The notes beneath the pieces were generated by a model. The model saw only the letters and a program-made list of their open reading frames with translations. It was not told the DNA's origin and ran no database searches. A program made the translations under genes and the position numbers. Below are positions 6,031-11,435 of a stretch of DNA of 34,701 bases, in pieces; the stretch's first letter is position 1, and each line of letters opens with the position of its first letter. Source of the DNA: Deltaproteobacteria bacterium (lineage in GTDB: Bacteria; Desulfobacterota; Syntrophia; Syntrophales; JAAYKM01); the NCBI GenBank assembly GCA_012522415.1, contig JAAYKM010000087.1:1-34701 (forward strand), in the 5' to 3' direction.

Positions 6031-6606
6031 TTAATGGAAGAGCACTTCCAGATTATAGCGTTTGCTGAAACAGTCGAGAACGAGGTCTAGGTGCGGATAA
6101 TCCATCGGTTTCAAGATGTCCTGTGTGATGTTGTTGACGGTTTGTTCTTCCAGTTCTCTCCGTTTACCCTCCATGTCGAAATCCGCCTGCCCTTTGGTGA
6201 AACGTACAACATGCACCAATTCGTGGGCGGCAATATACAGAAGAAGCGGTGACAGTCGGACGAAGGAACCCGCCCGTTCCACGGCGTCAAGAATCCGATG
6301 GTCGTGAAGACAGATCCGGTAAAAATCGAAACCGTTTTCGTTGCCGTCTTTATGATAGCCATATTTGCAAAGATGGGCGAAAACGCCGTCGTTGATCTCG
6401 TGGTTTTCCAAGTTGACCAGGGTTCTGACATCATAGCGCCAGGAACGCATCCTGGCGAGGGACAGACGATAATGACGGGAGACCATTTTTTCCGCTAGAC
6501 AAAAAGACCGGCCAGCCTGAGCGATCTCATTCGCATTGAAATAACGATCCACGATACGCTCTCCATCACACTCGTTCCCATCGAAATTCGGGGTTAGTAT
6601 AGGCAT
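6031..6606 (-). CDS. Hypothetical HExxH-containing protein (putative metallopeptidase)
   Basis: I do not recognise a named family. The protein (191 residues from ATG 6606) carries a clear zinc-protease motif HELVH (residues 128-132) inside a hydrophobic helix (LLLYIAAHELVHVVRF). A glutamate-rich helix with EEQTVN about 20 residues later could give the third metal ligand, gluzincin-style. No signal peptide or membrane segment is seen, so it is probably cytoplasmic. The frame stays open upstream to GTG 6648 and TTG 6657. None of the three starts has a good Shine-Dalgarno sequence, so the N-terminus is uncertain by 17 residues. It lies between the cell-wall precursor genes and fmdB on the same strand. 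Peptidase activity is inferred from the motif only. Confidence 0.65.
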   Translation of the reverse strand: MPILTPNFDGNECDGERIVDRYFNANEIAQAGRSFCLAEKMVSRHYRLSLARMRSWRYDVRTLVNLENHEINDGVFAHLCKYGYHKDGNENGFDFYRICLHDHRILDAVERAGSFVRLSPLLLYIAAHELVHVVRFTKGQADFDMEGKRRELEEQTVNNITQDILKPMDYPHLDLVLDCFSKRYNLEVLFH

Positions 6607-6712
6607 GAACCGGTGTTTGTCAAATATTTTGTGGATCCAAAATCGCACGGACTGCAAGAGTAAAAACGCGGTTATTTCTGAGTGGGTTCCGGAAGAGGTG
6701 ACAGGTCCTGGC

Positions 6713-7780
6713 CTATAGAGGCCCCTTTTTCGTGCTGTGTGCTCTCAGGGCTGCCGTGATGATGAGATCAATCAGACCGGCTTGGGTCATATCCATGGCT
6801 GCGGCCTGATGGAAAAGAACCGTAGAGGGCGTCATGCCTGGCAGGGTATTGGCTTCCAGAACGACGATCCGTCCGTCGGGCAGAACGAACATGTCAATTC
6901 TGGCGTAACAACGGAGATTCAAGGCCGTAAAAGTTGCCAAGGCTGTTTCCTGTATTTTTTTCAGACTGGTTTCCGGCAACCGGGCTGGGGTCTTATTTTC
7001 ACCTTTTCCGTAAAGGAACTTGTCTTCCAGGGAGAGAATACTGTTCCTGTCTGTCGGAATGGTTTCGGACGGAATCAAAGGAAAGGGTCTGTCTCCTTCC
7101 AGAATCCCGCAGGTTACCTCCATGCCGGTCAAAAATTCTTCGATCAGGGCGGTATTGTCCCACAAAAACGCGTTGGTCAGGGCAGGATTTACATCTTCAC
7201 GCGAAACGGCCTTGGTCACGGCGGTGCTGCATCCTTCCCGGGCGGGTTTGATCACACAGGGGAAACCAATTTCGCTTTCGATTCGATCCGCTGTGGTGGC
7301 CTGCACGTCCGACGTCCAATCCGGTTTCGTGACAGCAATGGTTTTGGGCACATCAATCCCTGAGGCCGCCAGGAACTGACGACAAAAATGTTTGTCCATG
7401 CCCAGGGCCGATGCAAGCACGCCTGATCCCGTATAGGGCAGGCCAAGCAATTCGAGGAGTCCTTGCAGACAGCCGTCCTCACCGTATTTGCCGTGAAGGG
7501 CCAGAAAAGCTAAGTCGATGCGGGCCTTCAAATCTTCGTATCGAAGGGGTTTCGCCTCTTCCCGGAGGTCCTCCCCGATATCCTTCGTACTGTTGCGCAT
7601 CAGGAGTTTCAGCGGAATCTCCCACAGGGAGGCGTTGTCATCCATAAAGATCGGAAGCGGATCATATTTTTTCCGATTGATCTTGCTGAAAATATTCCGT
7701 CCGCTTTCCAGTGAAATATCCTTCTCGGATGAAAGCCCCCCCAAAATGATGCCGATCTTCATTTTTGTCATGTCTGCCAT
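6713..7780 (-). CDS. ddl: D-alanine--D-alanine ligase, canonical copy
   Basis: ATP-grasp ligase joining two D-alanines for peptidoglycan precursor synthesis in the cytoplasm. Family blocks are visible: GGLSSEKDISL (14-24), HGKYGEDGCLQGLLELL (96-112) and YTGSGVLASALGMDK (116-130). Further on are the ATP-binding VIKPAREGCST (177-187), ARID (Asp296) and the metal-binding LEANTLPGMTPST (Glu309, Asn311). Length is 355, like the long DdlA type. The preferred start is ATG 7780 with GAGG 8 nt upstream; TTG 7804, just after the previous gene's stop, is possible. It directly follows a second ddl paralogue with 33 bp between them, downstream of alanine racemase, so substrate production and use are grouped. 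Both paralogues end in a similar S-x-K-x-GPL tail, consistent with tandem duplication. Confidence 0.92.
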   Translation of the reverse strand: MADMTKMKIGIILGGLSSEKDISLESGRNIFSKINRKKYDPLPIFMDDNASLWEIPLKLLMRNSTKDIGEDLREEAKPLRYEDLKARIDLAFLALHGKYGEDGCLQGLLELLGLPYTGSGVLASALGMDKHFCRQFLAASGIDVPKTIAVTKPDWTSDVQATTADRIESEIGFPCVIKPAREGCSTAVTKAVSREDVNPALTNAFLWDNTALIEEFLTGMEVTCGILEGDRPFPLIPSETIPTDRNSILSLEDKFLYGKGENKTPARLPETSLKKIQETALATFTALNLRCYARIDMFVLPDGRIVVLEANTLPGMTPSTVLFHQAAAMDMTQAGLIDLIITAALRAHSTKKGPL

Positions 7781-7813
7781 GCCTATATCCTCAATATCAA
7801 ACAAATTTATTCC

Positions 7814-8869
7814 TTACAGAGGCCCAATTTTTGCGCTATGGATTTGTATCGCGTTCTCTATGAGATGTGAGATGATCATGGATGGCAACATCCCCGAACA
7901 AGCGGCCTGTTCAAAGAAGAACGAGGATGGCGCCATGCCTGAAGAAGAATTGGGATCCGTGATCAGGATTCGTCCATCCGTAAGCAGAAAGCCGTCCATT
8001 CGCCCATAGGACCGAAAGCCCAGTGCAAGAAAAGCCCGCACCGCCGCTTCTTTGATTTTTTCAACAACGTCAGGAGGTATCGTCTTGGGGGGAGTAAACT
8101 TGCGGCAGCGTCCGGGCATGTACTTGTCATCGTAGGTGTAGAATTCGCTTTGCGGATGAATTTCTGTGACTTCCAGAGCCCGAATGTGCCCCTCTTCCTC
8201 CAGAACGATGGATGAGAATTCTGTTCCGTTCAGATATTCTTCAAGCAAAACCGAACTGTCCCATTGAAGGGCATTTTGGATGCCGTCTGCGAGCTCTTCA
8301 GAATCCTGAATAATGGTGACACCGGTACTCGAACCCTCCCGTGTAGGTTTGACCACAAGGGGAAAAGAGAAGCGCGACAGGATGTTGTCCCACACAGTTT
8401 TCGGATCCCTTACCCAGTCTCGTTCCGGGATGACCATGCTGGACGGTACGTCGAGACCCGCCGCCTTCAGAAAAATCAATTGGACGTGCTTATCCATACC
8501 AAGCGCGGAAGCCAGAACGCCCGATCCCGTGTATGGAATCCGAAGCAGTTCCAACAACCCCTGGATACAACCATCATCACCGTATTTACCATGAAGACAA
8601 ATAAAGACGAAGTCAACTTTTTCTCCCAAGTCTTCGTAAGCCAGCCGTTGCCCTTCCCGTTCAAGGCGGTCCATGATGTCGACGGTCGTATTCTGGGAAA
8701 CCAGCTGCCAGGGGATGCACCATAGGTTTCCACCATGGTCCATAAAGAGAGGTACACCTTCATAAAGTTCATTGTCCAAGTGATCATAGACATTTCTGCC
8801 GCTGTTCAAAGAGACTTCACGCTCAGAGGACAGCCCCCCCATGATGATGCCGATTTTCATTTTTTGCAT
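7814..8869 (-). CDS. D-Ala-D-Ala ligase-like ATP-grasp protein, divergent copy
   Basis: Second Ddl paralogue (351 residues), aligned with its neighbour over its whole length. It keeps GGLSSEREVSL (11-21), HGKYGDDGCIQGLLELL (93-109), YTGSGVLASALGMDK (113-127), VVKPTREGSST (172-182) and GRMD (Asp292). The C-terminal metal and substrate loop differs: the canonical LEANTLPGMTPST reads ITDPNSSSGMAPSS here. The Mg-binding glutamate is replaced by Asp305, and the TLPG segment by SSSG. The second carboxylate position and Asn307 remain, so activity is possible, but metal geometry or the C-terminal substrate may have changed. Ligases making D-Ala-D-Lac or D-Ala-D-Ser are known in this family; nothing here proves such specificity. 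It lies 60 bp downstream of alr. Confidence 0.85.
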   Translation of the reverse strand: MQKMKIGIIMGGLSSEREVSLNSGRNVYDHLDNELYEGVPLFMDHGGNLWCIPWQLVSQNTTVDIMDRLEREGQRLAYEDLGEKVDFVFICLHGKYGDDGCIQGLLELLRIPYTGSGVLASALGMDKHVQLIFLKAAGLDVPSSMVIPERDWVRDPKTVWDNILSRFSFPLVVKPTREGSSTGVTIIQDSEELADGIQNALQWDSSVLLEEYLNGTEFSSIVLEEEGHIRALEVTEIHPQSEFYTYDDKYMPGRCRKFTPPKTIPPDVVEKIKEAAVRAFLALGFRSYGRMDGFLLTDGRILITDPNSSSGMAPSSFFFEQAACSGMLPSMIISHLIENAIQIHSAKIGPL

Positions 8870-8929: not shown

Positions 8930-10900
8930 TTACCCTTTTCGTGAACTTTTTTCAATATCCCAGATGAAAGTCACGCCACTGTTGGGGAAAATCCACTCCC
9001 GATTATCAACTTTCAATTCGATCGATTTGCCGCGTTCCCTGACAACTTCCGGATAGGGATTCTTACCGGCGAAAAAGGCCACTTCACGGACGTTCTGCAA
9101 ATTCGTCCCCTCGTAGTCGAATGTAATGTTCAGACCTCGAGTGGGATAAATCAGGTAAACGGAAAACGTATTGCTGTTTTTGGGCTTCTTGGTGACGATT
9201 TCGATTTCCAGTTTAACGGGTTGATTACGTTTTCCCTTGAGGGTATCGCCGCCGCACCACACTTCATATCCTCTTTCCGTATGGTCCGACCGGATCAGGG
9301 GAATGGCATCCCCGTCTATGGCAACCCGAACAAACCGGAAATCCGGCTCCGTGGACTGATTGTCTCCTCGGCTGAAGAGCCAGCGGTACTCGCAGGCGGG
9401 ATCGTTAAATAACGCTTCGAGTTGTTCGTTGTTGCGAGCGCAGCCGATAAAAAAAATTTCACTGCGAATGGCTTTATAATATTCGATGTGGGTCGTGACC
9501 TTGTAATATTTCTCCTCTTGGGGATCTGCCTGCCGTTCATCACCGGTAAAGTCGGCAATTCTGATATCGTAGCGGAAATCTGTTCGAAGTTCGAGCTGCC
9601 GGTCACCCTTGCCGAAGAGCGTTTCGAACATTTCATAATAAATGGCATCCCCCAACTCTGTGCTTTTCGCTCTGGCTTGAAAGCATTGGCGGATAATATT
9701 ATCGATCCGCGAAAATGATTTCTCATCCTCCGGAATATAGATCCGCCGCAATCGGGGCTCAATGGCCCCGGCCTGACCCCTGTGGAGAAAAATCCGCGGT
9801 GCTCTTTTCCCGAGCATACAAAGGATCTCGTAATGAATGGTGTTGAGCCTTGCCGCAATATCGTTGACCGTGATTTCTTCCTGTTCGTCCTTTCCCAGGA
9901 GCGTGACGATATCCCCAATGGAGCAGCCGGGGATATGGGACACGTCAACCGTACACATATCCATGGAAATACGGCCGATGATGGGGGCCCGCTTCCCCCG
10001 GATCAGGACTTCACCCTGGTTGGAGAGGATCATCCCATATCCGTCACCGTAGCCGACGGGGATCGTCGCAATCCGGGTCGGCCGGTTCGTTATGTAGGAT
10101 CGCCCGTAACCGATACAGTAGCCTTTGGCAAACCTTTTGACCAGAACCACCCGGGTCTTAAAACTCATGACCGGCTCAAGTTTTGCTCGTTCCTGCGTGT
10201 CCGGGGAGGGATGGATGCCGTAGGTCATCAGACCCGGTCGGACCATGTCGAAATGAAATTCCGGATAATTCAAAATACCGGCGCTGTTTCCCATATGTCG
10301 GAGGGGAAAGACCCTTCCTTCTCGACGAAGTTTTTGCAGGAGCCCTATGAAAAAGCGTCCTTGTGCATTGCTGTAATCGTTAATCTGCTCGGCGGAAGAG
10401 AAATGGGTAAAGATGCCTTCGAGAATCAAATTGGGATGCTGAGCAATCTCGCGGATAACCCGCATGGCTTCTTTGTGCATGGTGCCGCCGCGTCCCATGC
10501 CCGTGTCGATTTCAATATGAACAGGGCCTGAGATTCCCGCTTGTGCATATTGTTCCTGCAACACGTGGGCAAAGTGTGTGTCGGAAACGGATGGAATAAG
10601 ACGATATTTAATGATTTCACGAATTTCCGAGTCCATGGAGGGACTGAGGATCAGGATCGGTGCGGCAATACCGCTGACCCGCAACTGGACTCCCTCGTCG
10701 GCGTTCGCGACCCCGAGCCAAGAGGCTCCGTTTCTCAAGGCCATGTTGGAAATTTCAATGGCGCCATGGCCGTAGGCATCCGCCTTCACCACCTGGAGAA
10801 TGCGAACGGATGAACCGACCAATCGCTTCAGTTCTTCCCAGTTATGGGTAAAATGATCCAGATCGACTTCGACCCAACTTCGGTACTGTTCTTCTTTCAC
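8930..10900 (-). CDS. alr: Alanine racemase with large C-terminal extension
   Basis: PLP enzyme interconverting L- and D-alanine for cell-wall synthesis. Residues 1-375 form a complete racemase: the PLP lysine is Lys39 (VVKADAYGHG), the opposing catalytic tyrosine is Tyr265 (GYGRSY), and VGYGDGY, ISMDM and the terminal ILCMLGKRAPRIF are present. A further ~280 residues (376-656) follow in the same frame. They start with a helical segment (DNIIRQCFQARAKSTELGD) and continue as alternating beta-type sequence ending PNSGVTFIWDIEKSSRKG. I do not recognise this domain. The start is GTG 10900 with AAGGGGG 5 nt upstream; the frame is open further upstream but there overlaps mobB without coding character. 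It sits between mobB and the two ddl genes. The racemase call is firm; the extension's role is unknown. Confidence 0.92.
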   Translation of the reverse strand: MKEEQYRSWVEVDLDHFTHNWEELKRLVGSSVRILQVVKADAYGHGAIEISNMALRNGASWLGVANADEGVQLRVSGIAAPILILSPSMDSEIREIIKYRLIPSVSDTHFAHVLQEQYAQAGISGPVHIEIDTGMGRGGTMHKEAMRVIREIAQHPNLILEGIFTHFSSAEQINDYSNAQGRFFIGLLQKLRREGRVFPLRHMGNSAGILNYPEFHFDMVRPGLMTYGIHPSPDTQERAKLEPVMSFKTRVVLVKRFAKGYCIGYGRSYITNRPTRIATIPVGYGDGYGMILSNQGEVLIRGKRAPIIGRISMDMCTVDVSHIPGCSIGDIVTLLGKDEQEEITVNDIAARLNTIHYEILCMLGKRAPRIFLHRGQAGAIEPRLRRIYIPEDEKSFSRIDNIIRQCFQARAKSTELGDAIYYEMFETLFGKGDRQLELRTDFRYDIRIADFTGDERQADPQEEKYYKVTTHIEYYKAIRSEIFFIGCARNNEQLEALFNDPACEYRWLFSRGDNQSTEPDFRFVRVAIDGDAIPLIRSDHTERGYEVWCGGDTLKGKRNQPVKLEIEIVTKKPKNSNTFSVYLIYPTRGLNITFDYEGTNLQNVREVAFFAGKNPYPEVVRERGKSIELKVDNREWIFPNSGVTFIWDIEKSSRKG

Positions 10901-10934
10901 AGGGGCCCCCTTGCTTTTCCGTATTGCCGCGCCC

Positions 10935-11435
10935 CTATGGTGACGGTTTGGGGAATCGCTGTATGATGATTTCCGCCAAAGCGGCGGCATCGTTGATATC
11001 CACGCAGGGTACACCCAGATTGAAGGAGCGGTCGCTGGCAATGGCCAACAGATCATCGGTCTGTGAACAGAGGAGTTCGTGGTTCGTCGCTGAGCGGAAT
11101 ACCTCGATTTTGGGGTGATTATTTCCTTTATATCCTTCAGAAAGGACAAGATCCACATTACGAACGTAACGCTTACGGATTTCCGAGAGTTCGTGGTCCC
11201 GGTCTACGTCTTCAACAAGACCGACCTTCCAGGGGGACGAAATGATCGATATGCTGGCACCGGCCTTTTTATGACGCCAGCTGTCTTTGCCTTCGTGGTC
11301 TATGTCGAACCCATGAACATCATGTTTGATCGTGGCGACACGATACCCCCTTTTCACCAGTTCGGGAATGAGTTTCTCCATGAGGGTTGTCTTGCCAGAA
11401 TCGGACCTGCCGACAATGGAAACGATCGGTATCAT
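10935..11435 (-). CDS. mobB: Molybdopterin-guanine dinucleotide biosynthesis protein MobB
   Basis: P-loop GTP-binding accessory protein of molybdenum-cofactor maturation, assisting MobA in adding GMP to molybdopterin. Walker A GRSDSGKTT (residues 9-17) sits directly after the first strand. It is followed by TIKHDVHGFDIDHEGKDS (about 36-53), the MobB signature in which the phosphate-side chain differs from ordinary GTPases, and by VLSEGYKG. Length 166 is typical. It is the first gene of the minus-strand run, 34 bp upstream of alr, an arrangement with no obvious pathway logic. MobA is not in the window. Presence implies bis-MGD enzymes such as formate dehydrogenase elsewhere in the genome (inference). 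Confidence 0.92.
   Translation of the reverse strand: MIPIVSIVGRSDSGKTTLMEKLIPELVKRGYRVATIKHDVHGFDIDHEGKDSWRHKKAGASISIISSPWKVGLVEDVDRDHELSEIRKRYVRNVDLVLSEGYKGNNHPKIEVFRSATNHELLCSQTDDLLAIASDRSFNLGVPCVDINDAAALAEIIIQRFPKPSP

Follow-up and report, generated by a model that had tools for sequence, protein, structure and literature searches.

In Syntrophales, an order of anaerobic bacteria, alanine racemase (Alr) carries a conserved C-terminal extension of about 283 residues that belongs to no known family. Alr, a drug target, is a standard example of an essential enzyme, and its architecture varies very little. The enzyme itself is known, but the combination of alr and this extension is in no resource searched, nor in the open-access papers searched. 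The extension may be a non-catalytic regulatory or docking domain, a reading to which we give an even chance because of the constraint on the sequence, the polar residues that are invariant within a predicted beta-sandwich, the lack of an enzyme homologue and the operon setting. A whole order has replaced Alr with a version bearing a conserved domain of no known family, a well-delimited and testable example of how the synthesis of peptidoglycan precursors can acquire a new module. With about 100 sequences, the domain also makes up an unclassified family, and it marks the lineage of Syntrophales, including the syntrophs Syntrophus and Smithella.

The DNA analysed, a stretch of 34,701 nucleotides from a member of this order (the window), encodes the 656-aa protein in one gene on the minus strand, from 10900 to 8930, with a GTG start. 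The frame from 8930 to 11158 (minus strand) is free of stops throughout. Translation probably begins at the GTG at 10898-10900, which has the purine-rich AAGCAAGGGGGCC ahead of it, and the gene comes after mobB (10935-11435). The extension comprises residues 374-656 (window 9781-8933), with no stop between it and Alr. The parts of the gene are as follows.

8930..10900, minus strand: alr with C-terminal extension, 656 aa (open frame, start context, Pfam and NCBIfam matches, fused likewise in relatives)
10208..10867, minus strand: Alr N-terminal PLP barrel, residues 12-231 (PF01168, E 6.4e-66; VKADAYGHG motif)
9791..10171, minus strand: Alr C-terminal domain, residues 244-370 (PF00842, E 6e-48)
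9587..9781, minus strand: extension part 1, a conserved helical connector, residues 374-438 (predicted helices; identity)
8954..9586, minus strand: extension part 2, a predicted all-beta sandwich, residues 439-649 (AlphaFold model; no sequence family)

An earlier, sequence-only reading of this DNA had described an in-frame continuation of some 280 residues past a complete racemase. This continuation is present, and its coordinates were right. Residues 1-373 are Alr in full, every catalytic motif included, and match PF01168 (Ala_racemase_N) at 222.6 bits (cut-off 24.1), PF00842 (Ala_racemase_C) at 162.1 bits (cut-off 25) and the TIGR00492 alr model at 370.9 bits (cut-off 168). The catalytic Lys39 (10784-10786), located in VKADAYGHG, is invariant in 48 relatives, as is Tyr284 (10049-10051) in GYGDG, the equivalent of Tyr265. 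Both catalytic residues named in that reading are therefore confirmed, its tyrosine number being the canonical one. The PLP-site arginines, Arg137 and Arg221, are 100% conserved in the same 48 relatives. In a set of 60 genomes, a single Alr C-domain occurs wherever there is an Alr match, and it is co-located with the extension except at contig or frame breaks. Judging from its family and from its being the sole Alr in the genome, the protein presumably racemises L- and D-alanine.

The fusion recurs across the order. The extension is present in 58 of the 60 relatives, where complete copies are 46-66% identical and nearly always in the same frame as Alr, and in all 48 relatives that are near-complete (at least 90% completeness and at most 5% contamination). 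A wider draw, made from the class and containing only members of Syntrophales, has it in 109 of 119 genomes; seven of the ten misses gave no Alr, and the other three have an Alr that runs off the contig end. For a wider draw, a tally of 90 of 92 was also obtained, both misses being contig-end cuts. Fifteen genomes were rechecked (the ten misses, two same-genus genomes with no match and three with partial matches), of which nine had no detectable Alr and six had an Alr cut by a contig end. In none of the 15 does an Alr stop at its ordinary end, and the order yielded no Alr without the extension. In two genomes, G045 (L073) and G119 (L074), the frame is split within the Alr part into two overlapping frames, with the extension still joined to the C-terminal part of Alr; since alr should be essential, these are probably frameshift or assembly errors. 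A scan of 84,980 genomes, whose reach is limited to close relatives, gave eight loci, so that distant homologues may exist in other phyla. Where loci come from named members, these are MAGs of Syntrophaceae, Smithellaceae and Syntrophus, all from the order Syntrophales.

The trivial explanation for such a gene would be a sequencing or assembly join of two neighbouring genes, or a chance frame past the alr stop, and the assembly of the window is fragmented (158 contigs). However, the fusion is in-frame in about 100 other assemblies, including the single-contig genome G036 (3,179,300 bases), and purifying selection runs through the extension. Recurrence on this scale excludes a join, and we regard an artefact of any kind as vanishingly improbable. 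The earlier reading had itself named a sequencing error joining two genes, with an internal start and ribosome site at the junction, as a possible refutation, and had proposed looking for the fusion in related genomes; such an error is ruled out by the recurrence, and inspection of the junction revealed no ribosome site and start.

Mean pairwise identity across 48 sequences is 67% for the Alr N domain, 75% for the Alr C domain, 75% for the helical connector (374-438) and 57% for the beta part (about 439-650). In 20 close pairs, differences at codon positions 1+2 were divided by those at position 3, giving 0.14-0.31 for Alr and 0.16-0.34 for the extension. The similarity of these ratios indicates that the extension is constrained about as strongly as Alr. 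Part 2 contains the near-invariant motifs CEYRW, YPTRG and WxFPxSG, while the extension as a whole has three near-invariant cysteines (Cys406, Cys487 and Cys503) and a series of near-invariant polar or aromatic residues (K476, Q493, E504, Y505, R506, E546, Y585, R588 and W636). These polar and aromatic residues favour a binding surface over a bare spacer. No internal repeat was found within the extension.

Part of this pattern could also be produced by an extension that is purely structural, steadying the Alr dimer or a higher oligomer without any regulation. Conservation within the extension is highest in the connector that adjoins Alr, and no search turned up the extension without Alr, a stand-alone form being what the earlier reading had suggested looking for. 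However, a beta-sandwich of about 210 residues with near-invariant polar motifs exceeds the usual need for dimer stabilisation, and ordinary Alr dimers are stable without any extension. A purely structural role is doubtful.

The domain had been described as one of no recognisable family, and this has been borne out. The extension has no match in Pfam, NCBIfam, PADLOC or the PDB sequences, including when 21 members were scanned one by one. PHROGs gave only scattered weak matches (the best, 0.0046, in two of the 21 members), on which the members disagree. Nor was any account of such an Alr extension found in the open-access papers searched, so that a match to an already described extension, which could have refuted the earlier reading, is absent from all of these resources.

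An AlphaFold2 model of the extension was built from nine sequences and has a pLDDT of 73 and a pTM of 0.73, with the five models spanning pLDDT 73 down to 43.5. It places helices, at low confidence, at extension residues 23-37 and 41-56, while part 2 is a beta-sandwich with short helices, mostly at pLDDT 70-92. The predicted fold of two helices and a beta-sandwich is moderately supported, and its secondary structure agrees with the helical stretch followed by beta-rich sequence that had been read from the letters. In a full-length model, for which the alignment was too shallow, strands and helices follow one another along the extension much as in the separate model; this model failed (pLDDT 51), and thus the packing of the extension on Alr is unseen.

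When the pLDDT 73 model was compared with the PDB using Foldseek, all 50 among the matches listed were M1 aminopeptidases or LTA4 hydrolase. The best E-value is 6e-7 (Foldseek probability 1.00), yet the TM-score is only about 0.38 (by query length), the rmsd about 6 A and the identity 4-10%. The matches may point to a beta-sandwich layout related to the saddle-like one of the M1 N-terminal domain. Unlike in M1 enzymes, no peptidase domain follows the extension. Homology to Peptidase_M1_N (PF17900) is unsupported, as there is no Pfam match and a comparison by hhalign of the extension profile with 17 M1 N-terminal domains gave a probability of 0.2% (E 0.31, 28 columns). The likeness is weakly indicated, and is best taken as a resemblance, not as membership.

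A second catalytic domain, with D-alanine or a wall precursor as the compound used or modified, would make the protein bifunctional and account for the same residues: the invariant polar and charged positions and the three near-invariant cysteines would suit an active site. There is also a precedent among Alr fusions, since MurF-Alr (NF008897) is bifunctional, and a long, N-terminally extended Alr frame occurs in the genome G225. However, no enzyme family is matched by sequence, and no metal or nucleotide motif was recognised in the extension. The fold matches are M1-family chains, and the part matched, which the fold output omits, is presumably their non-catalytic N-terminal domain. We consider a second enzyme unlikely.

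Ordinary Alr ends at about residue 370-390, as do most outgroup frames, whereas Syntrophales Alr has its further 283 or so conserved residues. The closest known parallels are MurF-Alr and the membrane serine racemase VanT (NF033132), in which Alr likewise has an added domain and is tied to cell-wall precursor synthesis. In both of these the partner is N-terminal and of a known type (a Mur ligase or a membrane domain, respectively), while the domain added in Syntrophales is C-terminal and of no known family. Identity with either was rejected, because the scores stay below the curated cut-offs and there is no N-terminal Mur ligase or membrane domain. The NF008897 model scores 340.9 bits against a cut-off of 804, with only its Alr part matched (454-821 of 822), and no Mur ligase family was found by Pfam in the 656-aa protein. 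The vanT models also fall under their cut-offs (349.2 against 460, and 226 against 900 for NF033132), and Alr homology starts near residue 5.

Outside the order, a 19-sequence profile of the extension was run against 395 sampled genomes of the phylum (E up to 1), and no convincing copy was found, fused or alone. The two best non-Syntrophales matches are fragments of 32-34 residues; the best of them (E 0.007) spans 34 residues and is taken as chance. Beyond Syntrophales, most Alr frames have 370-500 aa. The one much longer frame, unusual within the phylum sample, is that of G225 (L072:1-2481), which is extended at the N-terminus; it has 866 aa and ends with Alr, MurF-Alr-like by position.

A phage, plasmid or viral source of the extension was rejected, since 50,697 phage records, 72,556 plasmid records and the viral contigs yielded no match. 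No stand-alone source gene was seen beside alr at 20 outgroup alr loci, where no profile match was better than E 2.2. When 26 extended Alr domains were placed in a tree with 20 ordinary ones from the outgroup, the extended enzymes formed one clade (support 0.94), which is consistent with a single gain. The best reading is that the extension was gained once, in the ancestor of Syntrophales, and then inherited vertically.

The gene neighbourhood links alr to envelope functions. In relatives with a complete neighbourhood, the usual order is CHASE2-adenylate cyclase, alr-extension, ddl1, a gene for an outer-membrane-like protein, ddl2, mlaE, mlaF and mlaD; the outer-membrane-like label is a reading of the sequence of a protein with no Pfam match. 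The order in the window is mobB, alr-extension, ddl1, ddl2 and an unknown gene, with no mla genes adjoining. In several other families of the phylum, alr of ordinary length is followed by mlaE, mlaF and mlaD (L120, L124, L125, L126, L128, L131 and L139), and the sister-lineage genome G181, with an ordinary Alr, has cyclase-alr-mlaEFD. The linkage of D-alanine synthesis and phospholipid transport is apparently old. Since ordinary alr is found with mlaEFD in sister lineages, the envelope operon is probably the older of the two, with the extension added to it in place.

In most Syntrophales the gene immediately upstream of alr encodes the cyclase (adenylate/guanylate), for example at L078:4763-7018, L032:2571-4814, L035:412-2727 and L080:2680-4923. 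A close homologue of the CHASE2-cyclase is found in 32 of the 48 near-complete relatives; the remaining 16, as well as the window genome, lack it and all bear the tail. Of the 39 genomes with a close homologue, 36 have it on the contig that bears alr, by comparison of coordinates. Its position next to alr suggests that cyclic-nucleotide signalling is linked to envelope genes. The shared contig raised the idea that the extension might sense the cyclase product, but this was not adopted: many tail-bearing genomes have no close cyclase homologue, and in at least one outgroup the cyclase is found by an ordinary Alr, which together indicate that the tail is not tied to the cyclase. The locus L120, from another lineage, has a CHASE2-cyclase beside an ordinary alr.

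Two ligase-like genes lie next to alr in the window, ddl1 probably being in the same operon as alr-extension.

7814..8869, minus strand: ddl1, D-Ala-D-Ala ligase-like, with an altered metal-site motif (PF07478, 1.1e-43; order kept in relatives)
6713..7804, minus strand: ddl2, D-Ala-D-Ala ligase-like, differently altered (PF07478, 1.1e-41; order kept in relatives)

The product of ddl1 has TDPNSSSGMAPSS in place of the canonical Ddl motif (approximately LEVNTLPGMT), a change of the metal-ligand Glu to Asp. The product of ddl2 has LEDKFLYG, in which the loop Tyr is changed to Phe (as in D-Ala-D-Lac ligases), and REGCST, in which Ser is changed to Cys. This pair of divergent paralogues is conserved at L034-L036, L078, L079, L100, L104-L106, L109, L111-L113 and L117-L119, and no PF07478 protein other than its members was found in the window genome or in G036. 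Ddl1 and Ddl2 could be a heteromeric ligase or one of altered specificity, and the odd pair may be as interesting as the racemase next door. Dependence of the extension on this pair was rejected, because G015, G020 and G021 keep the extension with no pair beside alr; they have a strong-scoring Ddl instead. The tail is thus kept both without the cyclase and without the odd pair, so that neither can be its sole partner.

On the best reading, the ancestor of Syntrophales gained the module, helical connector and beta-sandwich together, once at the C-terminus of its sole housekeeping alr, and strong purifying selection on the only Alr of each genome has kept it. If the extension is a regulatory or docking domain, the connector would pack on the Alr dimer and the beta-sandwich would bind a ligand or partner. 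In this way, D-alanine production may be tuned or localised with the envelope pathway of the same operon, namely the cyclase, the Ddl-type ligases, the outer-membrane-like protein and Mla. We infer, rather than observe, the fold beyond its secondary structure, the packing on Alr, the ligand, the partner and the regulatory or docking role. A more specific version, in which the extension would be a new ligand-sensing domain that gates the sole Alr of Syntrophales in a lineage with a largely rebuilt D-Ala/Ddl branch, is rather improbable. To our knowledge, such direct control of D-alanine supply has been described for no Alr enzyme. The rebuilt branch would consist of the extended Alr and, in most members, a complementary pair of non-canonical Ddl proteins.

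A further gene recurs in this region. A conserved protein of about 200 aa with no Pfam match (window 6031-6657, minus strand) is encoded near the alr cluster both in the window and in several relatives, with homologues at L081:1962-2558, L079:11573-12121 and L032:11147-11716.
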